Virus record (IMG/VR): IMGVR_UViG_3300034954_000564
Location: 1-33,837 of that record
DNA: 33,837 nt
Reading direction: 5' to 3' (one strand)
Source: a virus
The first letter of the stretch is position 1. Each line of letters begins with the position of its first letter. Below the pieces are notes generated by a model that saw only the letters and a program-made list of their open reading frames with translations, was not told the DNA's origin and made no database searches. A program made the translations under genes and the position numbers. Below, piece after piece: positions 13,893-33,837 of the stretch.

Positions 13893-13923
13893 AGCCGCGT
13901 CAGGCTCGACACTTCACCTAATC

Positions 13924-14464: not shown

Positions 14465-14492
14465 CGAAGATCTGCGTTTATTCAATACTATA

Positions 14493-14921: not shown

Positions 14922-14923
14922 GA

Positions 14924-15439: not shown

Positions 15440-15822
15440 TAGAACCGCACCAACAGCTGATACAGGTACTCCTGATCACCTTTGAACGTCCGAATGTCCG
15501 TGATCTGAGCAACGCGGTTTGACCCTGCATACTTCAGCGTCACCGTGTCTTCAAATGTAGGCTGGTTGTCTCCAATCTGATCAGGCGTGATATACAAGCG
15601 GGCTTTACGCTCTTCACGTCCTTCTTCCTCTTCAGCATCAACAAACTCGATTGGAACGTCAAACGAGTACGCCGTATCAGTCGTTGTCAGCGCTCCAGTG
15701 CTCGTGTTGTAGGTCGGAGATGCCTTACGGGTGTACGTGATTGTGTGATCAAACGACTTACCCAGGTCTGCAACGACCTGCTTGGCAACGTTCTTGAAAA
15801 GCGTGTCAAGTGCGCCTGCCAT
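15439..15822 (-). CDS. Head closure/head-tail joining protein
   Basis: This protein has 127 residues. It begins MAGALDTLFKNVAKQVVADLG, followed by ITYTRKASPTYNTSTG and a central acidic run DAEEEEGREER, then ITPDQIG and a C-terminal ITDIRTFKGDQEYLYQLLVR. The pattern of a beta-barrel with an acidic loop and this C-terminal strand is typical of small head closure proteins (SPP1 gp16/HK97-type adaptors), which plug the portal and bind the tail. It lies between the connector gene (1-base gap) and the gp10-like gene (1-base overlap). Confidence 0.65.
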   Translation of the reverse strand: MAGALDTLFKNVAKQVVADLGKSFDHTITYTRKASPTYNTSTGALTTTDTAYSFDVPIEFVDAEEEEGREERKARLYITPDQIGDNQPTFEDTVTLKYAGSNRVAQITDIRTFKGDQEYLYQLLVRF

Positions 15823-15823
15823 C

Positions 15824-16354
15824 TCAACCCCTCACAACGCGGAGAGAATACGTGCCACTGCCGCCCAGACAATAAGCCCCGAGATAAGACTGAAGCCAAG
15901 GATAAACGTCGAATACGTTGTTAACAGTTCCAGTAGCCTGACTAGAAGTGTTGTACTTGACTTCCATCTCCCCAAGCTTGACGGACTCGTAAAGCCCCGT
16001 ATCGCCGGTAGTCCCTGTAATCGAGTCCGTGTCATTAGCCAGTGCATTGGCTAATTCATAAGTAGCGTATTTAATGTCGTTTGGAATGCTGGTGCAAACC
16101 AACTCCACACGATCCACGTGATAATCGTTACGAGGCCAGCTCAGCGCTTGGCCGTTATCGCAACGCTCACCATAAAAATTCAACGTGTCGATCCAGCGCG
16201 TTGCAGAGATCAGCGCTCGATTCTTTTTGTCGTCAGACTTGTTGTCCCATTGCGTGCTATCTGGGACGGTTTCAAAATATGCGTCGGCTTCTGCCAGCGT
16301 CACATAGCTGTTGGCTGTCGCACTCTTCAGTGTGGCGTTGATTGTGGCAGCCAT
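15824..16354 (-). CDS. Head-tail connector, DnaT-like phage family
   Basis: I use the ATG at 16354 (176 residues) rather than the GTG at 16378, because the GTG lies inside a terminator hairpin. The protein starts MAATINATLKSATANSYVTL, with AEADAYFE and later ALISATRWIDTLNFYGERC and LSWPRND. This matches the phage family whose members are often annotated as DnaT-like but which in virions act as the connector between portal and neck. The position just after the major capsid gene agrees. There is no clear ribosome binding site; a T-rich tract directly precedes the start. Confidence 0.7.
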   Translation of the reverse strand: MAATINATLKSATANSYVTLAEADAYFETVPDSTQWDNKSDDKKNRALISATRWIDTLNFYGERCDNGQALSWPRNDYHVDRVELVCTSIPNDIKYATYELANALANDTDSITGTTGDTGLYESVKLGEMEVKYNTSSQATGTVNNVFDVYPWLQSYLGAYCLGGSGTYSLRVVRG

Positions 16355-16357
16355 AGC

Positions 16358-16392
16358 AAGAAAAAGAAGAGGCCCCACCTAATGGTAGGGCC
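16358..16392 (-). terminator. Intrinsic terminator behind the major capsid gene
   Basis: On the minus strand, 11 bases after the capsid stop, GGCCCTACC - ATTA - GGTGGGGCC forms a stem of nine positions with one mismatch and a four-base loop (16371-16392). It is followed by a T-rich tract TCTTCTTTTTCTT (16358-16370). This would end part of the transcription after the capsid gene and so raise capsid mRNA relative to the neck and tail genes downstream. Confidence 0.75.
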
Positions 16393-16403
16393 ATGAACCG
16401 TTA

Positions 16404-17483
16404 TCAGGAAGGGATAGCGGTGGTGTCGAGTGGCGTGTTCACGATCAGTTCGACCATGGGAATCAGGTCGATGTCGTAAGTAGCCGTCCAGTTGCCAGCT
16501 GTTGCAAGCTGTGCGTTGGTCGGGTTGTCGCTAGCGCTGCCCCACTTGGTGCCCATCACGTGATAAGCAGTGTGGTAGTCAACCGAGATCACATCCTGCT
16601 TGGACAGGATGTTGCGGTCAGCTTCCACGCGGAGATCCTGCTGCACACCCTCAAGGATGGTGCCGGACTTCAGCATGTAGCAGCGGAACTCGCTGATGTG
16701 GGTTGCAGTACCAGGACGCACGGTGTTGACCTGTGAGTCAACAATCACGCGCATACCAGCAAATTCACCAACCTCACGAGCGCCGACGCCAACGCCGCCA
16801 CCACCCCAGGTCACTGCGCCAGAAGCAGACAGTGCAGAAGTGGAGAAGGTCAGCATTCCCACCTGATACAGGTAGTAAGCGACGGAGGGGTGAACAACCA
16901 GGATGTCCAGTTCATCACCACGCTCACCCAGAACAGAGCGAGCTTCAGCAACGTTGGCAGCAGTCAGATAGTTGGCTTCTGCCTGACCAGAAGTTGCACC
17001 AACAGCTTTGTCCAGTGAGTGACCAGACAGAGCAGTACCAAACAGACCAGCAAGCTGGTTATACAGACGTGCGCTGTTCAGCTTGTTGATGGCATCAGCC
17101 AGTTGGTTGCGGATGTGAAGCATGGGGTCTTCACCAGCAGCCAGAACTGCAACGTCATCCACGGCATACGCGAAACCGCGATGGCAGATGGTTGCAATCT
17201 GAGTGGCAGTACCAACCTTTTGAGGAACCAGATAGCCGTTGGTGTTCCAAGTTGCCGTACCGTCCATGATGGTTTCGGTAGGTGCAACCGGGTTGAACTC
17301 GGGCACTTGGATCCGGGTGCCGCCTTCGCGTGCATCCAGAAGAGAGTTGCGAACAACAGCGCCGCTCTTGATGAACTCGCTGCGCTCTTTAATAGCCTCA
17401 GACACATAGGTGCTGAGATTATTCCTTTTTACGATGTCCGCGAGAAGGACACCGCCGGAATAATTCTGAAATGGTGCGGCCAT
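16404..17483 (-). CDS. Major capsid protein
   Basis: This protein has 359 residues. The N-terminus (YSGGVLLADIVKRNN, SEAIKERSEFIKSG) and EGGTRIQVPEFNPVAPTETI are of the type seen in phage capsid proteins of the gp13/P22-related group with an HK97 fold. So are VDDVAVLAAGEDPMLHIRNQLA, DILVVHPSVAYYLY (a capsid A-domain signature) and the C-terminal VDYHTAYHVMGTKW. It forms the head shell. The scaffold gene lies directly upstream and the connector downstream. A strong terminator right after it and a 5' leader hairpin suggest that its message is separately tuned. No N-terminal protease-cleaved region is obvious. Confidence 0.85.
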   Translation of the reverse strand: MAAPFQNYSGGVLLADIVKRNNLSTYVSEAIKERSEFIKSGAVVRNSLLDAREGGTRIQVPEFNPVAPTETIMDGTATWNTNGYLVPQKVGTATQIATICHRGFAYAVDDVAVLAAGEDPMLHIRNQLADAINKLNSARLYNQLAGLFGTALSGHSLDKAVGATSGQAEANYLTAANVAEARSVLGERGDELDILVVHPSVAYYLYQVGMLTFSTSALSASGAVTWGGGGVGVGAREVGEFAGMRVIVDSQVNTVRPGTATHISEFRCYMLKSGTILEGVQQDLRVEADRNILSKQDVISVDYHTAYHVMGTKWGSASDNPTNAQLATAGNWTATYDIDLIPMVELIVNTPLDTTAIPS

Positions 17484-17512
17484 TTCTTAATCGGGGTAAA
17501 AGTTTGCGGGTC

Positions 17513-17529
17513 TCAAGTCACGGACTTGA
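17513..17529 (-). other. Leader hairpin before the major capsid gene
   Basis: TCAAGTC - CGT - GACTTGA (minus strand) is a perfect 7-bp stem with a 3-base loop, 30 bases before the capsid ATG at 17483. It may stabilise the capsid message or be an RNA processing site. Confidence 0.4.
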
Positions 17530-17531
17530 AG

Positions 17532-17550
17532 GAAAAGCCCCACGGGAGCT
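17532..17550 (-). terminator. Weak terminator-like hairpin at the end of the scaffold gene
   Basis: On the minus strand, AGCTCC - CGT - GGGGCT (6 bp with one G-T pair, 17536-17550) is followed by TTTTCC. It overlaps the scaffold stop codon. The stem is short and the T-run short, so it is probably leaky, or only an RNA-stabilising structure between scaffold and capsid. Confidence 0.4.
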
Positions 17551-18268
17551 ATTTACCAGCCTCTCGCTTGAGCACGGCTGCAAGCTCGGGGTCGGTAATT
17601 TCCAAGGACATTTGCCTTGTAATGTTAATACTACCTTCTGCCCATGGATTAGCCATTCCGGCAGCTCCTGCAGTGCCAGTAGCAGGCTTAGCGCCCATGC
17701 CGGCCTGAGCACTTGGCTTGAAATGATGCTCATACCCTGAGCCGGGATTTTTCAGCTTGGCCAGATAGACATTGATGTCTTGCTCAACGCCACCGTCAAG
17801 CACTTTGACGCTGCCATCCTCAGCTTTTTTGAGGTTGCCCTGCACCAGCTGCAGCATCTGACCGGAATTGATCGCACCAGCTTGGTTGATTGCTGTCAAT
17901 GCAGCATTCTTCATTGCTGCGGTCTCGTTTGAAGTCCGAAGATCAGCAAGCTGTCGCTCCAAATCAGCGATCTGTTGGTCTTTGGTTTGAGCCGTTTTGT
18001 TGGCTTCTTCCCAAAGATCCTTCCACTGGCCTTGATCTTCTAGCCTTTTTAAACGCTCAGCTTCGTTCTTTTCCAGCTTTTTATCAAGGGCGTTCATTTT
18101 TTCCTTGATTCGCTGGAATTTACCCTCAGCCTCTTCAGCTCGGGCTCTTTCAGCTTGAATTTGCTGCTCGTAAGCAGAAACGTCAATGTTGACAGTGTTG
18201 TCATTCGCAACCACGGGTTGCTCAGCAGGAGTTGCCACGGGCGTTTCCTGGATGACTTGTTCTTCCAT
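17549..18268 (-). CDS. Capsid scaffolding protein
   Basis: This protein has 239 residues. The N-terminus is rich in Pro, Val and Glu; residues about 35-115 form a long charged coiled coil (AERARAEEAEGKFQRIKEK, then DQQIADLERQLADLR). Next is a Gly/Ala-rich linker (AGMGAKPATGTAGAAGMANPW) and an acidic C-terminus. This is the usual build of siphophage scaffold proteins, which fill the prohead and are lost before DNA packaging. It lies directly upstream of the major capsid gene and downstream of a small acidic/basic protein gene (2 bases away). No protease motif is visible. Confidence 0.8.
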   Translation of the reverse strand: MEEQVIQETPVATPAEQPVVANDNTVNIDVSAYEQQIQAERARAEEAEGKFQRIKEKMNALDKKLEKNEAERLKRLEDQGQWKDLWEEANKTAQTKDQQIADLERQLADLRTSNETAAMKNAALTAINQAGAINSGQMLQLVQGNLKKAEDGSVKVLDGGVEQDINVYLAKLKNPGSGYEHHFKPSAQAGMGAKPATGTAGAAGMANPWAEGSINITRQMSLEITDPELAAVLKREAGK

Positions 18269-18270
18269 TA

Positions 18271-18486
18271 TTAGGAATTAGTGGACTCTTCTACCTTAGT
18301 ACTTTTCTTGCGACGGGTAGTTTTAGGCTTTGCCTCGGTTTCTACTTCCGTGCCAGGGAATGGAGTGCCGTTGGCAAGTGCTTCTTCTTTGGCAGCACGT
18401 TCAGCAAGATACTGCTGCGTGATTTCTACCATTTCCCACTTGTAGGTTCCATCAGCTTGTGGAACCTTATCCATGGATTTAGCCAT
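18271..18486 (-). CDS. Small hypothetical protein before scaffold
   Basis: This 71-residue protein has an N-terminal part MDKVPQADGTYKWEMVEIT and a Lys/Arg/Thr-rich tail (KPKTTRRKKSTK). I do not recognise the family. It lies between the portal and scaffold genes in the leftward head operon and ends two bases before the scaffold start, so it is almost surely expressed with them. A head-assembly accessory role is possible but is inferred from position only. Confidence 0.6.
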   Translation of the reverse strand: MAKSMDKVPQADGTYKWEMVEITQQYLAERAAKEEALANGTPFPGTEVETEAKPKTTRRKKSTKVEESTNS

Positions 18487-18507
18487 GAGTACAGAAGTGA
18501 TTTAGTC

Positions 18508-19959
18508 CTACTGTAACTCTGGTGCGGAATCTGGCGACTCAGCTGCTGTTGGCAGGATTTCACCCTGAACCAGCATGTCGCGGAACTCTTCGCGATCAAT
18601 CACCTTGTCTTCAAACAGCTGTGCCATCGCAGCAATATCCTGACCAATCAAGCGCTGCAAGTCGAAGTCACGGCTGATCTTCACCTCAGGTGGCTCAAGA
18701 CCCAGATAGTCAGCAGCCATGTTGTAAGCCTTCTGCAGGCCAGACTCCAAATCCATAGACACCATCGACAACATCGAGTTGGTGTCAATCCGATCCAGGC
18801 GACGTGCGTCTGCAGACTCAGCAACGAACTTCTGTTGGCTCAGCGTACTGATACCCAACGTCGCCATTTGCTGCTGTAACTCCTGGATTTCCGCCGATTG
18901 CGCTTCAAACGCGCTTGCCGCAGGCTCCACGTAATAGACCTTGTTACCCGGCTGGGTCGCCATCGCGTAATTAACGCTGATTGCCATATCCTTCGTCTGA
19001 TCGTCCCAACCCTCAAGGACGAGCATCGGTTGCGAAGCGATGTGGAGACTGTGGATAAGATCCGCTTGACGCTGATAATGGGCCAGATTGAGATGAGCAA
19101 TGTCCAACAGCGGTGGCTTGCTCGTCAACGTATCGGTTTTGTTGGCGTAAATCGTCACCAACGGAATCTGACCAAGTGAGAAATCGCCAGACTCAACCAG
19201 CTCGTACTCCGACGTAGCGTCGGATTGATCGAACGAAGCGGGGTATGGAAATGGCCCTTGCATTTCGAGTTTTTGCTCTTCCTGACGAAAGACGCGATAA
19301 CGACCTGGCTCGATGACACGTACTTGGTCATAAACTTTTTCGCCAAACTCGCCGTCAGGAACTACGGCTTTTTCCCCAATCCGAACTTGTGTAAGGTTTC
19401 CGTAATTGGCTTCGCGGTCCAGTCGCCAACCGTAGACGTTGGTTGGATCCACCTCAATCCAATAGGGCCGACGATTAAGAGCACGCTCCTCTGCAAGACT
19501 TCTCGCGCCCGAAGGCGCAGGAAAATCAACCAGCGTGTGGCAGTGCCCATACGTCAGGGCACAGATCAAGAGTCGTCGAGCGTATTCATCTAGATCCGAT
19601 CCACATCCATCAACATCTTTATTAAAGACATCTGTCCAATACGGATCACCCTGGACGCTAATTGGTTTTCGCAGGATTAACCCAGCTGCTGCACGAAGCA
19701 ACCGCTGCGTATAAGGCGTAAAAACAGAGCGATTTACCCGCGAAAGATAGGCCGTGTAGTCCTCACGGGGCTCTAGAGGCAGGAATGTCTCGCAGTTGTC
19801 GCGTAGATACTCCGTTCCGCTTGTGACGGCTCTCATGATCTCCCAGCCCTTCATCTGGTCGATCACAGCCCGTGTCCTCACGAACGGACTATCAACAGTG
19901 CCCATATAGGAACTGCTGACAAGATGCGTTCTAACGAGACCAGGAACGGAGTAAGTCAT
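18508..19959 (-). CDS. Portal protein (DUF4055 family)
   Basis: This protein has 483 residues. Early segments SRVNRSVFTPYTQRLLRAAAG and LILRKPISVQGD, then TYGHCHTLVDFP, PYWIEVDPTNVYGWR, and PLLDIAHLNLAHYQRQADLIHSLH are the recognisable features of DUF4055 portal proteins. The portal is the dodecameric ring at one head vertex through which DNA enters and leaves. Its place between the terminase-side genes and the scaffold fits. The C-terminus is acidic, with REEFRDMLVQGEILP, typical of the portal family tail. Confidence 0.8.
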   Translation of the reverse strand: MTYSVPGLVRTHLVSSSYMGTVDSPFVRTRAVIDQMKGWEIMRAVTSGTEYLRDNCETFLPLEPREDYTAYLSRVNRSVFTPYTQRLLRAAAGLILRKPISVQGDPYWTDVFNKDVDGCGSDLDEYARRLLICALTYGHCHTLVDFPAPSGARSLAEERALNRRPYWIEVDPTNVYGWRLDREANYGNLTQVRIGEKAVVPDGEFGEKVYDQVRVIEPGRYRVFRQEEQKLEMQGPFPYPASFDQSDATSEYELVESGDFSLGQIPLVTIYANKTDTLTSKPPLLDIAHLNLAHYQRQADLIHSLHIASQPMLVLEGWDDQTKDMAISVNYAMATQPGNKVYYVEPAASAFEAQSAEIQELQQQMATLGISTLSQQKFVAESADARRLDRIDTNSMLSMVSMDLESGLQKAYNMAADYLGLEPPEVKISRDFDLQRLIGQDIAAMAQLFEDKVIDREEFRDMLVQGEILPTAAESPDSAPELQ

Positions 19960-19979
19960 GACACCTCAGAGTTGAGTTA

Positions 19980-20240
19980 TTAACAGCCCCATCGACGACG
20001 GGCCGCTTTACCCCGTTCACCAGTCCAATTACGACTTCGAGCGCAGAAAGAACGCTTACGGGCAGCTTCTTCCTTTGTCTTTGGCTTGCCTGTAACCGGC
20101 GGTTTCAAATTAGAACCCGTTTCCCGGTTGTACTTAGCCCGACCTTTAGCGGTCAGGCCAGCACCCTTACTAGCAGGCAGCTTCTCGCCACGGCCAACAC
20201 TAAGGTTGGGACCACGCTTACGCTTTTTGCGCTCTGCCAT
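19980..20240 (-). CDS. Small basic protein, DUF6321-like
   Basis: This 86-residue, very Lys/Arg-rich protein contains the phrase GLTAKGRAKYNRETGSNLK, then PPVTG and RKRSFCARS. That is the conserved core of DUF6321-type proteins, common in marine phages near head genes. Function is not established. The strong positive charge would suit DNA or RNA contact. It lies 20 bases upstream of the portal gene and 11 bases after the tail-tube-like gene. Confidence 0.7.
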   Translation of the reverse strand: MAERKKRKRGPNLSVGRGEKLPASKGAGLTAKGRAKYNRETGSNLKPPVTGKPKTKEEAARKRSFCARSRNWTGERGKAARRRWGC

Positions 20241-20251
20241 CGTCCTAACCC

Positions 20252-20674
20252 TTATTCAAGGTTGGAAGTGATGGCGCCGCTGGTGATGAAGTTGCAAGTG
20301 GCAACAACCAGATCACCGACAGTAGAAGCAATATCCATGCTGGTGATAATGCCTGCAAAGCTCACGCTGTCAGTACCAGAAGTGGTACCAGTCGTAAACA
20401 GCTCAAACGTGGCATCAGCGGTGTCGCTGGTGGTCAGCACATCTTCGATAAATGCTGCTTGACCTGTTGCGTCAGGGTCGTAAACCAGCTCAACAGTGCC
20501 AGAACCTGAAACCAGGCTGCCAACAAATGCACGAGACGTGTCACCGTGATCGGTAACGTCCAACGTGTCTTTGGTGATGTTCAGTGTCCAGCTACGAGTG
20601 CCAACAATGGTTGCGTTGGAAGAACCAGCAGCATCAAACTGGACCGCACCTTGCTCTCCGCGAAGGATGGCCAT
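20252..20674 (-). CDS. Tail tube-like protein (proximal copy)
   Basis: This protein has 140 residues. It starts ILRGEQGAVQFDAAG and has TRSWTLNITKDTLDVTDHGD near residues 26-45, then GSGTVELVYDPDA, and a C-terminus DLVVATCNFITSGAI. These strands and the T(K)DTLDVTDHG turn match siphophage major tail tube proteins. Its place between the DUF6321/portal genes and the terminase side is unusual for this function. Another protein of like outline is at 5600-6031, and the normal slot between tail terminator and chaperone is empty. This copy may be the main tube subunit. Confidence 0.65.
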   Translation of the reverse strand: MAILRGEQGAVQFDAAGSSNATIVGTRSWTLNITKDTLDVTDHGDTSRAFVGSLVSGSGTVELVYDPDATGQAAFIEDVLTTSDTADATFELFTTGTTSGTDSVSFAGIITSMDIASTVGDLVVATCNFITSGAITSNLE

Positions 20675-20734
20675 GATTAGACATAGGAAGGGTCTATACG
20701 GTTGATTCTAACCGCTCACAACCCACAAGCCATC

Positions 20735-21037
20735 TTAGGACTTCTTCTTTTTCGCCTTGCGCCGCCGATGTTGATAAGAAATCTTCTTTGAACCTGTTTT
20801 TTCTTTCTTGAAACGAGCTTTTTCTGCAGGACTCATTTCTTTTGTGGTTTTTGGCGTCTTATCTGACACTTTGCGTGATGGTCTACACGCTGGATAAGCC
20901 CTATCTTCGCCTTTGGAGCGGCCACAAGGCTTTCCGGTCTTTATATCGACCCATTTCTCGTCAAACCATCTGCCAAGGCCACCACGGCCTTTACTTTTTG
21001 GTTTTGCGGGTTTTCGTGGTTTTTTTCGTTCCGCCAC
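20735..21037 (-). CDS. DUF5872-like protein, C-terminal half (frame 2)
   Basis: The open frame reaches back to an ATG at 21100, but the similarity I recognise begins near GGLGRWFDEKWVDIKTGK, followed by AYPACRPSRKVSDKTPKT. The nearest alternative start is a GTG at 21037. This is the second half of a family usually seen, in my memory, as one protein (DUF5872). Its first half is the overlapping upstream gene at 20991-21191, in a different frame. The protein is very basic. A run of seven A's lies in the overlap (21026-21020). It may be made by frameshift, by separate start, or the gene may be split by an indel. Function unknown. Confidence 0.6.
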   Translation of the reverse strand: MAERKKPRKPAKPKSKGRGGLGRWFDEKWVDIKTGKPCGRSKGEDRAYPACRPSRKVSDKTPKTTKEMSPAEKARFKKEKTGSKKISYQHRRRKAKKKKS

Positions 21038-21191
21038 TGGTTGCTTTCCGATAAGTGCCACCACGCTTCTTATATTCGCGCACAAGCCACGCATTTGCAT
21101 ACGCGCTCGGATAAACCGCGAATTTGCGCTTGGCTTCTGCCTTTACTCGGGCGTAAAGCGCCTTGTTTACTGGGACGTTTTCACTTGCCAC
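20991..21191 (-). CDS. DUF5872-like protein, N-terminal half (frame 1)
   Basis: This protein has 66 residues with a GTG start that overlaps the end of the preceding 33-residue gene. The core LYARVKAEAKRKFAVYPSA, then NAWLVREYKKRGGTY, is the recognisable N-terminal part of DUF5872-type phage proteins. The Thr/Lys-rich end (GGTKKTTKTRKTKK) then stops, while the rest of the family continues in the next frame. Basic charge suggests nucleic-acid contact, but no function is known. It may be produced as such and as part of a longer fused product. Confidence 0.6.
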   Translation of the reverse strand: MASENVPVNKALYARVKAEAKRKFAVYPSAYANAWLVREYKKRGGTYRKATSGGTKKTTKTRKTKK

Positions 21192-21282
21192 AGCTGCACC
21201 GCATCTTTTTGCTGCCCTTCTTCATGCCTTTTTTCTTGCCGTTGGGCTTTTTCTTGCCGCCAGCTCCGTAATGTCCAGGCAT
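21181..21282 (-). CDS. Tiny Lys/Gly-rich basic protein
   Basis: This frame of 33 codons begins MPGHYGAGGKKKPNGKKKG and ends RCSCGK. Very short basic proteins starting MPGHY/MPYH and rich in Lys runs are common beside DUF5872 genes in marine phages, which is why I call it real. Its stop overlaps the GTG start of the next gene. Two Cys near the end (CSC) are notable. Function unknown. Confidence 0.55.
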   Translation of the reverse strand: MPGHYGAGGKKKPNGKKKGMKKGSKKMRCSCGK

Positions 21283-21309
21283 GACGCAAAATGCAACGTT
21301 GCGCCCAGT

Positions 21310-21564
21310 CTAAACAGCTTTAGACCCGTATTCCAGCGTTACACGCCGTTTTCTGCCGCTAGGCGAATTCCAACGGAAAAACCTTACCTGCACTGATGGA
21401 TGAAGCTCCTCCTCAGGCGATTGCAGCGTCTTCCAACGGTGATCACACTCCAAACAACGCCGCTCACGCACACAATCGTTGTCCTGTGACGTATATCGCC
21501 CCATCACCTTTGACTCCTCTGATCCGCATTTCGGACAACAAGGCGCGTTGAGCGGACGAAACAT
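21310..21564 (-). CDS. Zinc-ribbon protein with NrdR-like N-terminus
   Basis: This protein has 84 residues from the ATG at 21564, two bases after the terminase stop. A TTG at 21570 is an alternative. The first part has CPKCGSEE, then CVRERRCLECDHRWKT: two CxxC pairs spaced as in the zinc ribbon of NrdR regulators, including the RR.C..C..R(W/F)(K/T)T pattern. The NrdR ATP-cone is absent, so it is not a full repressor. Phages often carry such short zinc-ribbon proteins near terminase; a DNA-binding or packaging role is possible. It is coupled to the terminase gene. Confidence 0.65.
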   Translation of the reverse strand: MFRPLNAPCCPKCGSEESKVMGRYTSQDNDCVRERRCLECDHRWKTLQSPEEELHPSVQVRFFRWNSPSGRKRRVTLEYGSKAV

Positions 21565-21566
21565 CC

Positions 21567-22820
21567 TCAATACAGGCGGTATGACGTTGCCCCCAGCGTT
21601 TCAGGTTTCGCCAGGTTGAACTGTTGAAGCACAAGATACCCGAAAGCATCAAAGGCGTGGTCCACTCCTAAGTTTTTGTTGGGCAAACCAGTGCCTGGTG
21701 CGTAAGTCAGCGTCCGCAACGACTTAATCAGCTCCTTGCACCGTGGATGGATCTTGACTCTGCGCGTTCCAGAAGCATCCATTAGGCCAGTATTGACCGC
21801 TGTGATCTTGTCTCGGATCTTCCACGGTGATCTGGGGCTTTGAACCGTGAAGCCACTGCGTCTGAGGATTGCGTGGTCCGTTACGCCCACACCGCTTGTC
21901 TTTCTTGCACCGCCTGTTGGGTCAGGACACGCGATAACTCTGCGATCCACCCCATACCTACGGGTTACTTCTTCTGCAAAATCCCAAGTGGTAGCCCCGC
22001 CAGTCAGCATGATCTCGTCAAACACGTACAACGTGTCTTGATCCTTGACTGCACAGATGCCACTCATTGGATCCACGTTGAAGTCAACGCCCAGCAGCAG
22101 CGGTTGAATCGAAATATCCTTGGCCTCTGTTGAAATGTTGTCGTCCGAAAAGCTGATGGCTACCAAGCCAGTCAGGTTCTCAAAGGACGCTTCGAATTCC
22201 TGGCGGAACGTGCGCGAATCAAGTTGAGCGCGGGCTGCTTCGACCTCGTGCTTACTGACGTTTCCGCCTTCAATCGTTGTGTAGCTCCATCGTTGCCATT
22301 CGTTTGTTTCGTCGTCTGGGACATAACACCACAAGTCGTAAAACCAGCTAGCTGTACCGTCTGGCGTCGAAATAAACAACGCCCAACCCTCTTTATCTGC
22401 TAAAGCAGGTCTGATTACCTCAAACCAGACCTCTGAATCCATAAATGCCGCTTCATCCAGCACTACACCCGACAAACTCCGGCCTCTCAACGCCATTGCG
22501 TTCTCTGTGCCCTTTAATTCGATCGTTGAACCGTTAATTAGCTCGATTCGTAAGTCTGTTTCGTTCTTAGTCTTAATCCAGACCTTTGGAACTAGCTTTT
22601 TTAACGCCCTCCACGCAATATCTTTGGCCATTCGGTAAGTCGGAGCGCAATAAAAGAAGGTTTCGCCAGGCCTGTTGAGCGCTCCACGGAGTAGCTCAAC
22701 ACACGAAAGGTACGATTTGCCAAATCGACGACCGGCAACTAAGACTCGGAAGCGTTTGTTGCTTGAAAAAACTTGGCCCTGGGCCCATCTCAGGCTTACG
22801 GGCTCTGCTTTTGTGCTCAT
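21567..22820 (-). CDS. terL: Terminase large subunit
   Basis: This 417-residue protein is the packaging motor ATPase with nuclease. Walker A is GRRFGKS at residues 30-36 and Walker B with catalytic acid is VVLDEA at residues 119-124 (D122, E123). Motif III lies near FISTPDG (149-155). The C-terminal nuclease has LGVDFNVDP (D246, D250), FDEI (E269), and an acidic VDHAFDAFGYL near the end, so all expected acidic residues are present. It cuts concatemers and pumps DNA into the prohead via the portal. It heads the leftward structural block and is divergent from a small-terminase-like gene at 22922. Confidence 0.93.
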   Translation of the reverse strand: MSTKAEPVSLRWAQGQVFSSNKRFRVLVAGRRFGKSYLSCVELLRGALNRPGETFFYCAPTYRMAKDIAWRALKKLVPKVWIKTKNETDLRIELINGSTIELKGTENAMALRGRSLSGVVLDEAAFMDSEVWFEVIRPALADKEGWALFISTPDGTASWFYDLWCYVPDDETNEWQRWSYTTIEGGNVSKHEVEAARAQLDSRTFRQEFEASFENLTGLVAISFSDDNISTEAKDISIQPLLLGVDFNVDPMSGICAVKDQDTLYVFDEIMLTGGATTWDFAEEVTRRYGVDRRVIACPDPTGGARKTSGVGVTDHAILRRSGFTVQSPRSPWKIRDKITAVNTGLMDASGTRRVKIHPRCKELIKSLRTLTYAPGTGLPNKNLGVDHAFDAFGYLVLQQFNLAKPETLGATSYRLY

Positions 22821-24788: not shown

Positions 24789-24968
24789 TTATGCGCTGAG
24801 CCGGATCAAGCATTCCTCAGCGCGACAGTCTTCCAGTTTGGCTCGAACCCAATTAAGACGACCGGCAACTCGACGGCCATCATTGGTGTCTTTGTAGCAG
24901 TGAAGCGCTTCGAGCAGAAGCATCCACTCGTCGGCACAAAAATGAATGGTCTTAGTGGGTTCAGTCAT
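24789..24968 (-). CDS. 59-residue hypothetical protein
   Basis: I take the ATG at 24968; the open frame reaches a TTG at 25031 but that part crosses the divergent promoter region. The sequence begins MTEPTKTIHFCADEWMLLLEAL and has a second helix GRRVAGRLNWVRAKLEDC. It is a small helical protein with no family known to me, convergent with the gene at 24489 and divergent from the gene at 25060. Confidence 0.5.
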   Translation of the reverse strand: MTEPTKTIHFCADEWMLLLEALHCYKDTNDGRRVAGRLNWVRAKLEDCRAEECLIRLSA

Positions 24969-24979
24969 GAATGGGTTCG

Positions 24980-25008
24980 TTGCCTTGAATGGATTGTTCC
25001 TGTAAGAT
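24980..25008 (+). promoter_or_regulatory. Possible sigma70-like promoter for the 25060-26940 gene cluster
   Basis: TTGCCT (24980-24985), 17-base spacer, TAAGAT (25003-25008), then about 50 bases to the ATG at 25060. On the other strand a TTGACT (25025-25020) faces the leftward gene, but its -10 is weak. Confidence 0.4.
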
Positions 25009-26940: not shown

Positions 26941-27096
26941 TTCAACGTCTCCGCGCCAAACATCCTCATCGATGGGGCGCTTGACCGCAAACTCCCGAAA
27001 CAGGCGTTTCAGCTCTTCAGTTGAGACGCCTATTTCTTTTGCCTTCACCGCCACGTTGCATTGACCGCGATAGATCAGCTCTAACGCTTCCTCCAC
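26920..27096 (-). CDS. 58-residue protein of a cyanophage type (ends GDVELGWPWA)
   Basis: The GTG start at 27096 overlaps the stop of the nuclease gene (TAGTG). The protein, EEALELIYRGQCNVAVKAKE, then IGVSTEELKRLFREFAV and VWRGDVELGWPWA, has a small helix-turn-helix-like middle and a conserved-looking end. I have seen this W.GDVELSWPW end on small cyanophage proteins. The coupling to the nuclease gene supports its reality. It may be a small DNA-binding partner; the function is not known. Confidence 0.6.
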   Translation of the reverse strand: MEEALELIYRGQCNVAVKAKEIGVSTEELKRLFREFAVKRPIDEDVWRGDVELGWPWA

Positions 27097-27911
27097 TACA
27101 TAACCTCTCCGCTCAACAACATCTCCTTATACAAGTTGTTCCGTTCGGTCCACCTGGCTTCACAGCCTCTCATCTCCAGCTCTGACAACATCCGCAACTG
27201 GACATTGCCGTTTGGCTTCGCAATCACCACCGCTCCAGCATTAACTCGGATGCCTGCTCTCTCGCGCAAACCAAGGCTGTAAGCACCAAGTTGGTCCTGA
27301 TGGTCCTTCAACCATGCCTCTGGCTTGTCAGTCTCTCGACTTGTCGTCTTGAAGTCGCAGATCGTTAAACCCAATGGCGTGTCAATCAACGCATCCGCCG
27401 TTCCAGCAAAGCCTTCATCACTGCTGATGCTGAACTCACTGGCATGAATGGCTGTCACAGTGCCACTTACCAACCAGTCGGATAAACCTCTGGCGTACTC
27501 ACGGGCTGGCCATGGAACCTTGGGCGAACCTTCCTCCGCTTTCTTGAGTGCCCAGTTGGTAACTGCCTTTGGAGGGCGAGCCAATCCATCATCCCAGACC
27601 TTCCATGAACCCTTCTTGTTAGCGCTCTGTCGAGCCAGCTTTGCTGCGGTCTTGAGTACATACTCGCAATGCTCATGAGCAACGGTGCCACGGTCACAAG
27701 CAAGGTCACGCTCCAAACCACTGCCAGCACGTTGTGACCAGCGCTCCAGAGCATCCTTCTGTGATTGAGGGGCTGTGTTCTTCAGAATATGGGTGACAGA
27801 GTGATAAATCTGCCCATGTTGATCCCTGTAAACACGGAATCTGCCTGTGTTGTCTTGCTCCAGCTGCCATCGGCGCAGTGAAGCTAAGGCGTCTTGTGTA
27901 TCAGTCGTCAT
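27096..27911 (-). CDS. PD-(D/E)XK exonuclease (RecB/Cas4-like)
   Basis: I use the ATG at 27911, which lies in the stop-overlap of the small upstream gene, giving 271 residues; the open frame begins at 27989. The nuclease motifs are in order: GTVAHE with H79, TADALID with D173, ICDFKTT with D186 and K188, and QLGAY with Q207 and Y211. This is a full PD-(D/E)XK set of the RecB/lambda-exo-like superfamily. It lies near an ssDNA-binding-like gene and a primase-helicase, so it probably works in phage recombination or replication-end processing. Confidence 0.8.
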   Translation of the reverse strand: MTTDTQDALASLRRWQLEQDNTGRFRVYRDQHGQIYHSVTHILKNTAPQSQKDALERWSQRAGSGLERDLACDRGTVAHEHCEYVLKTAAKLARQSANKKGSWKVWDDGLARPPKAVTNWALKKAEEGSPKVPWPAREYARGLSDWLVSGTVTAIHASEFSISSDEGFAGTADALIDTPLGLTICDFKTTSRETDKPEAWLKDHQDQLGAYSLGLRERAGIRVNAGAVVIAKPNGNVQLRMLSELEMRGCEARWTERNNLYKEMLLSGEVM

Positions 27912-28062
27912 GAATGGCGTTTTCTTCCAGCCACCTTTGACGGAGCTGATTTTCCTTGGGCTCCACGAGATGAGCGCTAGAAACCACACCAGTCAAATGA
28001 CCGACAGTCACTGAGACACAACCGTCTTCCATGAATGTCGTAACTGTCTTGGGCGGTTCCAT
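27901..28062 (-). CDS. 53-residue hypothetical protein coupled to the nuclease
   Basis: It reads MEPPKTVTTFMEDGCVSVTV, then GHLTGVVSSAHLVEPKENQL, ending AIHDD. The stop overlaps the ATG of the nuclease gene (ATGACGACTGA covers both). A second ATG in frame at 28032 is possible. The beta-rich VSVTVGHLTGVV core followed by a helix (QLRQRWLEENA) fits a small folded protein. I believe similar short proteins occur next to nucleases in cyanophages, but I cannot name a family. Confidence 0.6.
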   Translation of the reverse strand: MEPPKTVTTFMEDGCVSVTVGHLTGVVSSAHLVEPKENQLRQRWLEENAIHDD

Positions 28063-29480: not shown

Positions 29481-31718
29481 ATGACGCTTCAAGATTTCGT
29501 CAAGGCTCTCCCCGAAGGGCTTGTTTATGCTCCGATCCACGCCAAAAACGCCAAGCGTGGCTTCTGTGGCAAACAGCCCTTGAAAGCCAGTTTTGATCAG
29601 AAGTTTGGGCCTGCAGACGTTGCCTTGGCGCTCCAACGTAACAATGATCTCAAAGCCGTTGGCATCTTTACTGGCATCCGTGGCAACGGCATTGTCTTTC
29701 TTGACGTAGACCGCAACCTCAAGCGTTGCATGAAGCAGTGGGGCGAGTCGCTTGCTGGCGCTCCAATGGTCACGTCAACTAAGCAGAACGCCGCCAAGTT
29801 CATCTTTCGCGTTCCAGAAAAACTTTGGAAGGAAGTTAAAGGTCGTGGCCTTGGTAAAGAGGATTACGAGATTCTCTGGAACTCAAAGAAGCAGGGTGTC
29901 ATCTTTGGCGCTTACCCCGGTGGCGATAACTCTGAGCCCGGCGAGTACAAGTTTGAAGGCGACCTCAACAACATCCCCATCGCTCCAGATTGGTTGCTCG
30001 CTGAAATGCGTGAACCGCCTAAGACCATTATTAAGCGTGATCTCGACTTCTCTGATCGCACGGATGATGAGATCTTTCAGATCATCAAGGACTGCCTGGA
30101 TGTAATCCCCAATAAAGGCAAGGGATCTCGCGATCACTGGGTCAAAATTGGAATGGCCATCAACTCTGCTCTGCCTACAGAAGCAGGAATGATGCTGTGG
30201 TCCTCTTGGTCCTCAGACGATCCAGACTTCGAAGAGGAGTGGAAAGAGGACAACCCCTGCGAGCACATCTGGCACTCCTTTAAAGGCAACGGTGTTGGAC
30301 TTGGCACCCTGATTCACTTGGCTGACCTTGAAGACCCTCATCGTCATCGGTTTTCAGAAGACCTAGCCAAAGCAGTTAAGTCCGCAGAAGACAAGCAGGT
30401 TCAGGAGTACAGGCAATCAACCCTGGATTACGAAGAGGTCATCAAACGCGCCTTTGAGATCCTCAAACTTGATAACCCAGCTGAAGTCAACTACAAGCTC
30501 AACTCTCTTGCGCTCCAAGCGGGCTACCGCGATCAAACCGCTCTTGAAAAGCTGATCGTTGATCAGATCGCTTATGAAAAAGCACAATCGCTGATGACTG
30601 TGGAGAAGTTGATGGAGCTGGATGAGAAACGCGGCTATCTCATCCCAGACGTTCTTCCCCACCCTTCAGTCATTCTCATTTACGGTGCTGGTGGTGATGG
30701 CAAGTCAACTGCTGCTTGGGCTCTCGCAAAACACATCGTTAGCGGCAAACCCTTCAAGGTTCGCGGTGCTGACGTTCCAATTCAACAAGGGCCTGTTCTC
30801 CTTCTCAATGGCGATCAACCTCTGATTCAGCTCAAAGAGCAGCTGATTGAAGCTGACTTTCCCATCACAGATCAGACCTTCATCCAAACCGACTGGCAGC
30901 TTCAACGCTATGCACAGTTCATCAAGCTGATGGAGACGCATAAGCCAAAGCTGGTCGTTATTGACTCGCTGATTGGCTGCTCTGGTGGACGCGCCTTTGA
31001 CGAAAACAAATCTGACTTCGCTACTCCGCTCTACTGGCTGACCAAGAACAACGGTGATCTGTTCCCAGCCACCACAATCCTCATCATTCACCACGCCAAC
31101 AAAAACGGTGGATTCCGTGGCACCTCAGCCATCCGTGATGCCGTAGATGAGACCTGGAGCCTTAAACGCCCTGAAAGCGACCCCCAGAAGCGCTCCAAGC
31201 AGCAACAGCAGCTGCAGCCTCATGAGCGGTTGATTGAAGTGGAGAAGAGCCGCTCAGGACGCTCAGGCACGCATTTGATCCTTGGGCAAAGCGATGACCT
31301 GGACTTCTACATCGCTGACTTCACTCCTGAAATGGATCCCGATGACAACGCTCCATCCTCTGTGCAAGGCAGGGTGCTTAGTCGCTTGAGAACCGCTTAT
31401 CCCGAGTCACGCACCAAAACTGATCTCATTGCAGATCGTCTGGTTGCTGGCTCTCCAGCTGCAATCAAGAAAACGCTCCAAAGGCTGGAAGCTCAACAAC
31501 TCATCGTCTCAAGCGTCTCAGAAGGTTCCCGTTCCAAACAATACAGAGCCAATCTCGCGCGTGGAGAGGGTTGGAGCGTGTCCCCTTTAACTAAAGAAGT
31601 TAGTGATGGAGCGGTATCTGGTACGGGACAACAGGATGGGGACACGCCTTTATGTCCCCCTTTGATGGATGGAGCGGTTGAGATTCAACTCACTGACGAA
31701 GAACGGGGACAAATCTAA
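29481..31718 (+). CDS. Primase-helicase (AEP primase, PriCT-2, RepA-like ATPase)
   Basis: This is a 745-residue fused replication enzyme. Residues about 1-170 look like a bifunctional primase/polymerase (AEP) domain with the catalytic pair in FLDVD (D75, D77). Residues about 190-285 match primase C-terminal 2 (RDHWVKIGMAINSAL, WSSWS, FKGNGVGLGTLIHLA). From about residue 385 there is a RecA-fold ATPase of the RepA/DnaB-like kind: Walker A GAGGDGKST near residue 403 and Walker B LVVIDSLIG near residue 491. A winged-helix-like C-terminus follows (VLSRLRTAYPESRTK, LIADRL, KKTLQRLEAQQLI). It primes and unwinds phage DNA. An iteron-like cluster overlaps its 3' end. Confidence 0.88.
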   Translation: MTLQDFVKALPEGLVYAPIHAKNAKRGFCGKQPLKASFDQKFGPADVALALQRNNDLKAVGIFTGIRGNGIVFLDVDRNLKRCMKQWGESLAGAPMVTSTKQNAAKFIFRVPEKLWKEVKGRGLGKEDYEILWNSKKQGVIFGAYPGGDNSEPGEYKFEGDLNNIPIAPDWLLAEMREPPKTIIKRDLDFSDRTDDEIFQIIKDCLDVIPNKGKGSRDHWVKIGMAINSALPTEAGMMLWSSWSSDDPDFEEEWKEDNPCEHIWHSFKGNGVGLGTLIHLADLEDPHRHRFSEDLAKAVKSAEDKQVQEYRQSTLDYEEVIKRAFEILKLDNPAEVNYKLNSLALQAGYRDQTALEKLIVDQIAYEKAQSLMTVEKLMELDEKRGYLIPDVLPHPSVILIYGAGGDGKSTAAWALAKHIVSGKPFKVRGADVPIQQGPVLLLNGDQPLIQLKEQLIEADFPITDQTFIQTDWQLQRYAQFIKLMETHKPKLVVIDSLIGCSGGRAFDENKSDFATPLYWLTKNNGDLFPATTILIIHHANKNGGFRGTSAIRDAVDETWSLKRPESDPQKRSKQQQQLQPHERLIEVEKSRSGRSGTHLILGQSDDLDFYIADFTPEMDPDDNAPSSVQGRVLSRLRTAYPESRTKTDLIADRLVAGSPAAIKKTLQRLEAQQLIVSSVSEGSRSKQYRANLARGEGWSVSPLTKEVSDGAVSGTGQQDGDTPLCPPLMDGAVEIQLTDEERGQI

Positions 31719-31782
31719 TTGTCCCTACCCCTTGTCCCCATGTAAATCCATTGGCCTGACTGGTTTTTGGAGCGTGGGGACA
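31579..31782. repeat. Cluster of eight TGTCCC(C)/GGGGACA sites, origin- or operator-like
   Basis: Sites: TGTCCCC at 31579, 31653 and 31733; TGTCCC at 31720; GGGACA at 31625; GGGGACA at 31638, 31705 and 31776. Four lie in each orientation. Two pairs make perfect hairpins: 31638-31659 (7 bp, loop 8) and 31706-31725 (GGGACAA/TTGTCCC, loop 6). Five TGGAGCG motifs are in or just outside the cluster (31572-31833). It covers the 3' end of the primase-helicase gene and the 89-base gap after it. Confidence 0.65.
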
Positions 31783-31807
31783 TATTTTGCATCTATACGC
31801 GCGAGAG

Positions 31808-31951
31808 ATGAACTGGACCAAGATTTTGGAGCGCTCAGGCGTCCCAGAACCACCTGGCTATCACGAGACCATTGCTCGCATAAAAGCCAAGCCAGACAAA
31901 CCGCGTGTCAAACCGTCTCGAAAGAGTAAAAAACGTCCCAAGCGTAAGTAA
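31808..31951 (+). CDS. 47-residue basic protein of a cyanophage type
   Basis: It reads MNWTKILERSGVPEPPGYHE, then TIARIKAKPDKPRVKPSRKS, ending KKRPKRK. The MNW.KILE.SGVPE.PG start is one I recognise from small cyanophage proteins beside primase or helicase genes. The C-terminus is strongly basic and could touch nucleic acid. GAGAG lies directly before the ATG. The longer frame at 31669-31929 overlaps it in another phase and is a shadow. Confidence 0.65.
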   Translation: MNWTKILERSGVPEPPGYHETIARIKAKPDKPRVKPSRKSKKRPKRK

Positions 31952-31960
31952 CATCCACGC

Positions 31961-32224
31961 ATGAAAAAAGTTGAAACCCTCCTTCCAGAAGAGCTAGTCG
32001 AAAGACTCTCTGCTGAAGCCAAAGAAAAAGGTGTTCACAGGTCAGACTTGATCCGTGAACGCCTCATGCAACCACCCAATCACCTTGGATTAACCACCAG
32101 TGATTTTCACAAAGCTGTTACGAAGGTTCGTCGTCGATCCAGCTATGGTCTGGATAGGCAACAGGCTGAAAGCCTTGTCGCCACCGTATTCAACGAACTC
32201 TTCAGCCCAAGCGATGGGGACTAG
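31961..32224 (+). CDS. Ribbon-helix-helix DNA-binding protein
   Basis: This protein has 87 residues. The N-terminal 45 residues (KKVETLLPEELVERLSAEAK, then GVHRSDLIRERLMQ) have the strand, helix, turn with G, and second helix of Arc/CopG-type RHH proteins (LP.EL...L...A...G..RS.LIR..L). The C-terminal half is helical (RQQAESLVATVFNELF). RHH dimers bind palindromic DNA. The palindromic cluster just upstream (31579-31782) and the divergent operator at 29381 are candidate targets. Confidence 0.7.
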   Translation: MKKVETLLPEELVERLSAEAKEKGVHRSDLIRERLMQPPNHLGLTTSDFHKAVTKVRRRSSYGLDRQQAESLVATVFNELFSPSDGD

Positions 32225-32468
32225 ATCCGTCAATCTTCAGTACTGCCAGATTACTGACGAACACTGCCCGCTAGCAATAACTCGCTTCACTACCTTTGAC
32301 CTGGACGACAAACCACTTGCTGTTGAGCAAGTGACATATGAATCCAACATGGAGTACATGGAGCGGCAAGTAATTAACGCTTTATCGTGCAATGTTGAGG
32401 TCAGTATTCTGACAGCAACGCCGATTCATGAGTTCAAAAGACTGCATTATTTGTTTAACAAGGACTAA
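32214..32468 (+). CDS. 84-residue hypothetical protein
   Basis: I use the ATG at 32214, overlapping the end of the RHH gene by 11 bases; the frame is open to 32100 but only as a shadow of that gene. The protein (RSVNLQYCQITDEHCPLAIT, then RFTTFDLDDKP and a helix EYMERQVINALS) appears to have a mixed alpha/beta fold. I recognise no family. Start-stop overlap with the next gene (TAATG). Confidence 0.5.
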   Translation: MGTRSVNLQYCQITDEHCPLAITRFTTFDLDDKPLAVEQVTYESNMEYMERQVINALSCNVEVSILTATPIHEFKRLHYLFNKD

Positions 32469-32641
32469 TGAACGTACAAATCTTTCGGCACAATGCTGAA
32501 TGGATTGTGCTAACTGAGTCTTACGCGCTAACGTTCCACCAAACCCTTGCTGGCGCGATGAAGCATGCCGCAACCGAAATCGGGGCGTCAGATCATCATG
32601 GAACGCCTCAACAAAGCAATTCAACTGGCGACAACAGCTGA
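32468..32641 (+). CDS. 57-residue hypothetical protein
   Basis: It starts MNVQIFRHNAEWIVLTESYA with a beta hairpin and then a helix TLAGAMKHAATEIGA. The ATG overlaps the upstream TAA. Its last part overlaps the next gene in another frame by 44 to 77 bases, so either the tail of this one or the early start of the next may be wrong. Unknown function. Confidence 0.45.
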   Translation: MNVQIFRHNAEWIVLTESYALTFHQTLAGAMKHAATEIGASDHHGTPQQSNSTGDNS

Positions 32642-32774
32642 CCTTCAAAGGGCTGCAATGTTCTTGGAAGGAGCCAGAGAAGTTAGAAAAGGTTCTCGTC
32701 GTCAACGCACCAATGCACGCTCTGCTCAGGCAACTGCGTGGAAGAAAAAGGTTGACGAGTCGATAACATGGTAA
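32598..32774 (+). CDS. Small basic hypothetical protein
   Basis: This protein has 58 residues from the ATG at 32598; an ATG at 32565 would give 69. It contains a helix MERLNKAIQLATTADLQRAA and an Arg-rich stretch RKGSRRQRTNAR. No family known. It overlaps the gene before it. Confidence 0.45.
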   Translation: MERLNKAIQLATTADLQRAAMFLEGAREVRKGSRRQRTNARSAQATAWKKKVDESITW

Positions 32775-32798
32775 CATTCGTTTAGTATTTTAGAGCCG

Positions 32799-33089
32799 AT
32801 GGCTACAAAGCACGGCAACCGCGTATATATCCAAGTCTTGTTGGAACCTTACCGTGGTGAACTCTTTATAGAAGAAGCTGCTGCACTAGGCGTAAAACCT
32901 TCCGCGTTGATCAGAGATCTCGTCTATGACTACCTCGCTTCAATGACTGATGAAGAAGCCTATGCAGATGCAGCCTTGAACGACAAAAAGAAATGGCAAG
33001 ATGCTGTAGATGCCAGGCTTGAAGGCAGAGCTAGAAATCGACGAGCTAAAGCTCTTCAATCAGACCAAGACATCGACTCGTCAAACTGA
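32799..33089 (+). CDS. Ribbon-helix-helix-like small protein
   Basis: This protein has 96 residues. The N-terminus RVYIQVLLEPYRGELFIEEA, then ALGVKPSALIRDLVYDYL, fits strand-helix-G-turn-helix of RHH proteins. The C-terminal half is charged and helical (WQDAVDARLEGRARNRRAK). It is the second RHH-like protein near the iteron-like cluster. Its last 34 bases overlap the end of a convergent gene on the minus strand. Confidence 0.6.
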   Translation: MATKHGNRVYIQVLLEPYRGELFIEEAAALGVKPSALIRDLVYDYLASMTDEEAYADAALNDKKKWQDAVDARLEGRARNRRAKALQSDQDIDSSN

Positions 33090-33271
33090 CCAATGTGGCC
33101 TACAGCCTGCTTGAGCAGCTTGGCCTGATGCCAGTTGGTACGCACCAATGACACGCATAACTGCTTTAATGCGTCCTGATCAGCGCAGCTTTTAACGTCT
33201 CGAACGGTACGTTCCAACTCCAACTCCTCTTCAAGGGTCTGGTTGACGACCATCCAGTCAGCCCAGCCCAT
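33056..33271 (-). CDS. 71-residue hypothetical protein coupled to dCTP deaminase
   Basis: I choose the ATG at 33271, with AGG upstream, over the TTG at 33292. The protein begins MGWADWMVVNQTLEEELELE, and its second half ALKQLCVSLVRTNWHQAKLL followed by KQAVGHIGQF is a helix pair of a type I associate with small cyanophage proteins. It lies 22 bases after the dCTP deaminase stop, so it is probably cotranscribed. Confidence 0.55.
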   Translation of the reverse strand: MGWADWMVVNQTLEEELELERTVRDVKSCADQDALKQLCVSLVRTNWHQAKLLKQAVGHIGQFDESMSWSD

Positions 33272-33293
33272 AGCCCTGAAGATTCTTATCAAT

Positions 33294-33812
33294 TCATGCC
33301 ACGGACGGCATGACTGTCAAGTGGTTGTTGTAATGGCCTGTTTCCGCGTAGCTACGCATTGGAGCGTTAGACATCACGTGAAACACCATCTGACCAATCT
33401 TCAAACCAGGCCAAAGCGGCAAAGCATGATGCAGCCGTTCATTCTTCAATTCGAGCGTCAGCTTGCTTCCGTGCCAGCCTGGATCGCACCAGCCAGCAAG
33501 CAGGTGATTAAGACCAGATCGTGCGCGGCTTGACTTGAGTACAAATTGGCAGCTGATGTCGTCGGGCAGGTTAAACAACTCAAGTGTTTCAGCCAAGCAA
33601 AACTCGCCGGACTGAAGCATGAACGGGTCATCTTCTGTCTTGTCCGCGATGTTGATACGCACCAACTCAGGGCTATAGATGCTTTCCACCATCAAATAGT
33701 CACCCAGCCTCAAGTCCAAACTGGCTGGATTCAGCAGCTCTTCATCGAATGGGACGACCATTTGGCTCTTACGGCACCGAGCCTTGATCTCCCAATCACA
33801 CAGAACTGCCAT
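33294..33812 (-). CDS. dcd: dCTP deaminase
   Basis: This protein has 172 residues. It deaminates dCTP to dUTP to supply the dUMP/dTTP route for phage DNA synthesis. The motif KSSRARSGL at residues 93-101 holds the conserved Ser and Arg residues, and LTLELKN at residues 118-124 has the catalytic Glu (E121). NPASLDLRLGDYL (28-40) and GLKIGQMVFH (136-145) are further trimer and nucleotide-site segments of the family. Length is slightly below the bacterial Dcd size. A separate dUTPase or thymidylate synthase is not in the window, so the later steps would come from the host or from genes outside it. Confidence 0.9.
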   Translation of the reverse strand: MAVLCDWEIKARCRKSQMVVPFDEELLNPASLDLRLGDYLMVESIYSPELVRINIADKTEDDPFMLQSGEFCLAETLELFNLPDDISCQFVLKSSRARSGLNHLLAGWCDPGWHGSKLTLELKNERLHHALPLWPGLKIGQMVFHVMSNAPMRSYAETGHYNNHLTVMPSVA

Positions 33813-33837
33813 CCCTGGGACGCAAAAATCAATCCTA

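Follow-up and report, generated by a model that had tools for sequence, protein, structure and literature searches.

The DNA analyzed here is the entire virus record IMGVR_UViG_3300034954_000564 of IMG/VR, 33,837 bases of one strand read 5' to 3', and is referred to as the window. Near its right end, a plus-strand gene (29481-31718) encodes a PrimPol-helicase of 745 aa, and at the stop codon of this gene lies an array of eight copies of the short repeat TGTCCNN (iterons), interleaved with copies of the word TGGARCG. TGGARCG is the reverse complement of CGYTCCA, an abundant word of the window; CGYTCCA is designated plus and TGGARCG minus, and counts are given as plus:minus. Based on sequence comparison, the segment from 31.57 to 31.83 kb is very probably the replication origin of this phage, and the PrimPol-helicase is the candidate for its initiator. 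Since the window is the whole record, the right flank had to be taken from relatives. With the PrimPol-helicase protein as query, 344 matching stretches were found in viral contigs, and 80 of the 344 were kept; L numbers denote loci of relatives and G numbers denote records of relatives. Two relatives, G001 and G003, are terminally redundant with terminal repeats of 55 and 97 bp, respectively, and apparently represent complete genomes.

The iterons were recognized as a second repeat when the region was compared across relatives. The eight copies occupy 204 bp in the order + - - + | - + + -, and constitute a dyad whose two four-repeat halves are mirror images in layout. The left half consists of iteron 1 (TGTCCCC, 31579-31585, plus strand), iteron 2 (CGGGACA, 31624-31630, minus strand), iteron 3 (GGGGACA, 31638-31644, minus strand), and iteron 4 (TGTCCCC, 31653-31659, plus strand). 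The right half consists of iteron 5 (GGGGACA, 31705-31711, minus strand), iteron 6 (TGTCCCT, 31720-31726, plus strand), iteron 7 (TGTCCCC, 31733-31739, plus strand), and iteron 8 (GGGGACA, 31776-31782, minus strand). Half of the array lies within the PrimPol coding region. Of roughly 100 relatives, most share this order. The average is 8.6 copies per 470 bp, compared with 1.04 in random stretches, and the steps are about 46, 13-14, 13-14, a variable spacer, 13, 13, and 46. The array is only partly kept in L070, L258, L076, and L260. It is the densest place for the iteron word in all 16 of 16 records, although in G015 with just 3 copies versus 2 elsewhere. The repeat word is clade-specific (TGTCCCC, TGTCCCA, TGTCCAG, or TGTCCTA) and the copies within one array are mostly alike; from clade to clade the bases change together, with position and order constant. 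The array persists in L065, L066, L080, and L229, where the sequence after it enters a different gene. No Rfam match was found in the array region. As expected for an iteron origin, multiple short repeats are present at one unique locus beside a putative initiator gene.

The domains of the PrimPol-helicase were assigned with Pfam (PF09250, PF08707, PF13481), AlphaFold, and Foldseek. They are a Prim-Pol domain (aa 30-171), a PriCT-2/helix-bundle domain (aa 202-281), a RecA-type hexameric helicase (aa 373-543), and a winged helix (aa 628-690). The assignment of the first domain to the archaeo-eukaryotic primases (AEP) is based on the match to PF09250 and on the invariant residues D75 and D77. 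The helicase part has the AAA_25/RecA fold (PF13481), and its nearest folds by Foldseek include DnaB and RSF1010 RepA among other RecA-fold proteins; the superfamily 3 (SF3) helicase of pRN1-type initiators was not found, and the RecA-type domain occupies its place. The winged helix is a predicted fold encoded by 31362-31550 on the plus strand, with the AlphaFold secondary structure helix-helix-helix-strand-strand, and is similar to MarR-type winged helices with a Foldseek probability of 1.00 but with e-values of only about 1e-3. No family A or B DNA polymerase was found in 7 records. An exonuclease-like gene is located at 27096-27989, and a gene for a CopG-like (ribbon-helix-helix) protein is located just downstream of the array (31961-32224).

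The link between the protein and the array comes from covariation. Residue 663 is at the fifth position of the third (recognition) helix of the winged helix, and the codon for K663 is at 31467-31469. With one exception, the residue follows the repeat word: Lys with TGTCCCC, Arg with TGTCCCA or TGTCCTA, and Gln or His with TGTCCAG. Of 720 alignment columns, that of residue 663 ranks first in normalized mutual information with iteron type. The columns ranked next are mostly in the C-terminal tail, whose codons overlap the iterons, whereas codon 663 lies outside them. In a tree of residues 1-600, Lys becomes paired with TGTCCCC in the main clade and a second time in the distant L085. The winged helix is therefore likely to bind the iterons, and the covariation indicates that the PrimPol-helicase is the likely initiator, binding an origin behind its own gene.

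The dispersed word was characterized in 12 related phage records including the window, and expected totals across the 12 were derived from dinucleotides. The top two 7-mers by over-representation are CGTTCCA and CGCTCCA, both in the window (31 and 28 copies, with about 2.5 expected for each) and across the 12 records (337 versus 35 expected and 335 versus 42; jointly 672 versus 77). Single-base neighbors drop steeply, and CGATCCA, CGCACCA, and CGTACCA are weaker. Shuffling of synonymous codons explains about one fifth of the plus copies (643 seen versus 132 +/- 9) and under half of the minus copies (192 versus 72 +/- 6.5). Genes of both directions show the plus excess, with 1.84 versus 0.34 copies per kb in plus-strand genes and 1.31 versus 0.31 in minus-strand genes, so the signal belongs to the DNA strand and not to transcription or codons. 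The proposal that the motif is oriented at the DNA level thus holds. A codon or amino-acid artifact is ruled out by the synonymous shuffles, the gene-strand split, and the mixed reading frames, and a transcript-level signal is ruled out because the orientation is independent of gene direction. The motif is markedly sparser over the head and packaging genes (8000-22000 of the window) than elsewhere, and stretches almost devoid of it are also seen in several relatives (G003, G013, and G014).

Among divergent relatives, whose PrimPol is 48-55% identical, L259, L260, and L261 show counts of 15:4, 20:2, and 15:3 with 1-2 expected, and the bias keeps the same direction relative to the PrimPol gene; L258, with 7:6, is the exception. 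Down to 48% identity, no shift of the motif with PrimPol divergence was seen, save a drift to CGATCCA/CGAACCA in AT-rich relatives. As read from these sequences, this constancy neither proves nor excludes recognition by the PrimPol. L257-L261 are binned in five unrelated groups (a proteobacterium, Microbacteriaceae, Planctomycetota, Saprospirales, and Sphingobacteriales), and are most likely mis-binned virus contigs, that is, bin contamination. When phages with an exchanged replication module were sought by their portals, no clear case emerged, and the longer loci showed the same motif bias. The motif was also counted in known cyanophages that have a related portal or ATPase. In S-2L, S-H1, and MED4-184, CGYTCCA is not notably enriched. 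Synechococcus phages KBS-S-2A (L207; 5:15, about 5 expected on each strand) and S-CBS4 (L204/L209; 13:22, 8 and 11 expected) are modestly enriched on one strand, about 2-3-fold.

The initial annotation had reported a flip of this motif near 31.55 kb. Its numbers are correct (57:10 on the left of 31,550, 2:8 on the right), as are its right-side positions, with plus copies at 32532 and 33210 and minus copies at 31572, 31607, 31670, 31768, 31827, 32359, 32599, and 33360 (Fisher test p = 7e-5, for a breakpoint picked after inspection). The first five minus copies are arranged around the iterons. After the last plus copy before the array (CGTTCCA, 31530-31536), TGGAGCG on the minus strand abuts iteron 1 (31572-31578, PrimPol frame 0), lies in the gap between iterons 1 and 2 (31607-31613, frame 2) and in the central spacer of the dyad (31670-31676, frame 2), precedes iteron 8 past the PrimPol stop codon (31768-31774), and follows immediately to the right of the array (31827-31833). 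TGGARCG occupies iteron gaps in differing reading frames, and individual minus copies recur among relatives at fixed distances from the stop codon (-146, -111, -48, +50, and +111). In a profile of 54 non-redundant loci, minus copies are almost absent between 3,000 and 200 bp to the left of the array center, 16 plus and 112 minus copies are inside the array, and a mixed kilobase follows before the plus orientation returns. The segment at 31.57-31.83 kb is a local conserved reversal lodged in the origin-like array.

The window stops about 2 kb past the minus cluster, and relatives that extend further right rule out a genome-scale flip. Their counts are 964:49 to the left of the PrimPol 3' end, 228:349 in the first 2.3 kb to the right, 221:83 in the next 2.7 kb (2.3-5 kb), and 133:35 beyond 5 kb, so that the plus bias is back within 1-3 kb, which is the outcome named in the initial annotation as refuting its reading. 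The terminally redundant G001 and G003 have overall counts of 64:14 and 72:21 with plus bias all round, and both arms are biased in this direction (24:4 and 36:7 in G001; 26:6 and 40:10 in G003). Their cumulative motif skew dips by 2-4 counts beside the array and then rises all round, in place of the extreme anticipated for a change of replichore. GC skew has one sign in nearly all 2-kb bins. The initial annotation had taken the flip as the sign of an origin or terminus where a replication-linked motif changes direction. The place itself is very probably an origin, and it does coincide with the iteron array and the end of the primase-helicase gene, but the reversal does not extend over a replichore.

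One motif arrangement round the whole circle would indicate unidirectional theta or rolling-circle replication and not a bidirectional fork pair. It is fairly probable that the parts combine as follows: an origin, its PrimPol-helicase initiator, and priming at TGGARCG during copying in one direction. The C-terminal winged helix would bind the eight TGTCCNN iterons in their two mirror-image groups of four, for which the covariation argues strongly. The RecA-type hexameric helicase, judging from its fold, would then open the DNA at the array. The PrimPol/PriCT-2 part would lay primers at 5'-TGGARCG-3' on the single-stranded template. Copies in the array, nearly all on one strand, would start one new strand, and those elsewhere on the circle, which are mostly on the opposite strand, would start the discontinuous strand. 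Unlike the iterons, TGGARCG does not vary by clade, and it must therefore be read by a different binding surface. The PriCT-2 helix bundle resembles that of NrS-1 polymerase, and the NrS-1 word is read for priming; on this analogy, we infer that TGGARCG is the priming site. Provided that TGGARCG is the form read on the template and that the G-richer strand is the one made continuously, GC skew would weakly suggest that the fork leaves leftward, along late-gene transcription.

Several other explanations were weighed against this one. Bidirectional replication, in which the motif would switch at the origin and keep the opposite orientation along the right replichore, would account for the 2:8 in the final 2.3 kb of the window and for the coincidence of the switch with the iteron array, but the plus counts further right in relatives and the two plus-biased arms of G001 and G003 make it extremely improbable. 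It is possible, though on the unlikely side, that the array is a PrimPol-bound origin while the dispersed motif is a Chi-like signal, a helicase-loading or strand-exchange signal, or a packaging-direction signal. The reading of TGGARCG by the PrimPol is deduced indirectly, an exonuclease-like gene is present, and a word that is one-sided all round would also suit concatemer processing or packaging. A Chi or packaging signal would not be expected to reverse exactly within iteron gaps. For a Chi-like signal, enrichment of the motif would be expected in hosts. In four of the five bins that hold relatives its frequency is close to that of the reversed-pattern control, and in G018 it exceeds the control about 1.5-fold, with the limit that these bins may not be hosts. 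The absence of notable enrichment in S-2L, S-H1, and MED4-184 also speaks against this explanation; KBS-S-2A and S-CBS4 have the excess of about 2-3-fold on one strand.

The remaining two explanations concern the array itself. It could be a regulatory operator, for example for the ribbon-helix-helix protein encoded just downstream, rather than an origin; MarR-like winged helices are usually repressors, and autoregulation by initiators is common. This is quite improbable, since the array is kept where the following gene differs, the repeat word follows a residue of the PrimPol itself, and half of the array is inside the PrimPol coding region. Alternatively, the iterons could act as DNA hairpins, like the stem-loop origin of pRN1, and not as protein sites. 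Single-strand folding of the array is better than all 200 of 200 shuffles (z = -3.3), the outer iteron pairs give 10-bp stems that have TGGAGCG in the loop or next to it, the concerted changes preserve pairing, and pRN1 requires a stem-loop downstream of orf904 (PMC4234260). Inverted copies fold by construction, however, and pairing alone does not explain the covariation with residue 663, so that this explanation is considered unlikely.

A number of observations weigh against the combination of an iteron origin, a PrimPol initiator, and TGGARCG priming. The PF09250 match is only at the Pfam cut-off, and the histidine of the AEP sxH motif appears, by eye in 33 relatives, to be replaced by an invariant Lys106 (codon 29796-29798, in the context STKQNAAKFIF). 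The full-length AlphaFold model has low confidence (predicted template modeling score 0.35). L073 breaks the rule for residue 663, having Lys with TGTCCCA, and the covariation rests on 4-6 changes on the tree; with so few independent changes, its support is strong but not final. No AT-rich opening element is present, as the array is 46-52% AT and the region of 31.3-32.3 kb is 46-55% AT. The mirror-symmetric array would fit bidirectional initiation by two helicases, and is awkward with a one-sided motif. No Okazaki-like regular spacing of plus sites was seen, their spacing being random with a coefficient of variation of about 1, and few sites lie in the head-gene region. At third positions, GC skew amounts to -0.15 for plus genes and is near 0 for minus genes, which divides it about equally into a coding-strand and a strand-wide component and lends weak support to the direction of the fork. 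The anatomy of the locus, its conservation, the strand bias, and the covariation between protein and DNA are direct observations; binding, unwinding, priming, and fork direction are parts of the proposed model.

Among the nearest known arrangements is that of ORF904 from the Sulfolobus plasmid pRN1 and of phage BIP-1, in which an AEP primase-polymerase, a helicase, and a C-terminal winged helix are joined in one protein. The origin sequence essential to pRN1 directly follows the orf904 gene (PMC4234260), a placement shared by the probable origin of the window. The helicase of pRN1 is SF3 and that of the window is RecA/RepA-type; the pRN1 origin is a stem-loop without iterons, in place of an eight-iteron dyad; and pRN1 primes at GTG, with no dispersed oriented 7-mer reported in the consulted part of the source. 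RSF1010 (IncQ) also has iterons, which are bound by RepC. There, RepA, RepB', and RepC are three proteins, whereas all three functions apparently reside in one protein here, and two priming sites (ssiA/ssiB) contrast with about 60-90 motif copies.

NrS-1 polymerase, a phage PrimPol with a helix-bundle domain and a C-terminal ring-shaped region as in the window, primes at 5'-TTTGGTTA-3' and GTG, and its helix bundle reads the site (PMC8718748). TTTGGTTA has TTGG in common with TTGGARCG, the commonest context here. In the NrS-1 genome, this 8-mer occurs just twice, once on each strand and centrally, and neither an iteron array nor covariation is described in the consulted part of that source. 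A profile of the PrimPol of the window gave no sequence match to the solved NrS-1 structures.

Cyanophage S-2L is the top-ranked named phage for the portal protein (38.7%), and other nearest named portals are from cyanophages S-H1 and KBS-S-2A and from Prochlorococcus phages; a partial match of 82% is a contig of plate AG-345 from the extracellular sort gate. S-2L has a similar layout of exonuclease, annealing protein, and PrimPol. Its PrimPol, proposed as the sole polymerase (PMC8065100), is not detectably related to that of the window, its helicase resembles the papillomavirus one (PMC8065100), and its CGYTCCA count is 15:12 with about 8 expected per strand. No comparable dyad was seen in the regions behind the primase/ATPase genes of S-2L and S-CBS4. 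No primase activity of the S-2L protein was detected on standard templates, and the template sequence was suspected (PMC8065100). The template requirements of PrimPols are an open problem, and here the priming word of a phage PrimPol is predicted from genomes alone.

In open-access full texts, no oriented motif or iteron origin was found described for such phages. It is tentatively proposed, with rather less confidence than would be needed to assert it, that a widespread group of uncultured marine phages has a one-direction replicon in which one polypeptide is origin binder, helicase, and primase-polymerase, and in which 60-90 one-strand priming words are block-reversed only in the origin. If this is true, fork direction and priming are written in the genome sequence. 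From the covariation of residue 663 with the iterons comes a recognition rule based on one residue, and a one-sided motif that reverses locally at a single place would be a sequence signature of unidirectional or rolling-circle phage replication that can be searched for in other viromes.

A second conserved group of motif copies is located further right (32359-32605), at 32359 (minus), 32532 (plus), and 32599 (minus). Its internal spacing is kept among relatives, and it moves with the downstream gene block, which in L019-L021 places it at roughly +1800 to +2060 relative to the PrimPol stop codon. This group may be conserved coding sequence. Another one-sided word is TGAATGG, with counts of 8:1 in the window, 11:0 in G010, and 12:1 in G014. 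In many relatives, 3-4 copies about 18-31 bp apart are clustered about 4-8 kb left of the PrimPol end; the cluster is at 24943-24992 in the window and is also present in L236, L259, G009, G010, G012, and G014. It is possibly an operator or a second array.

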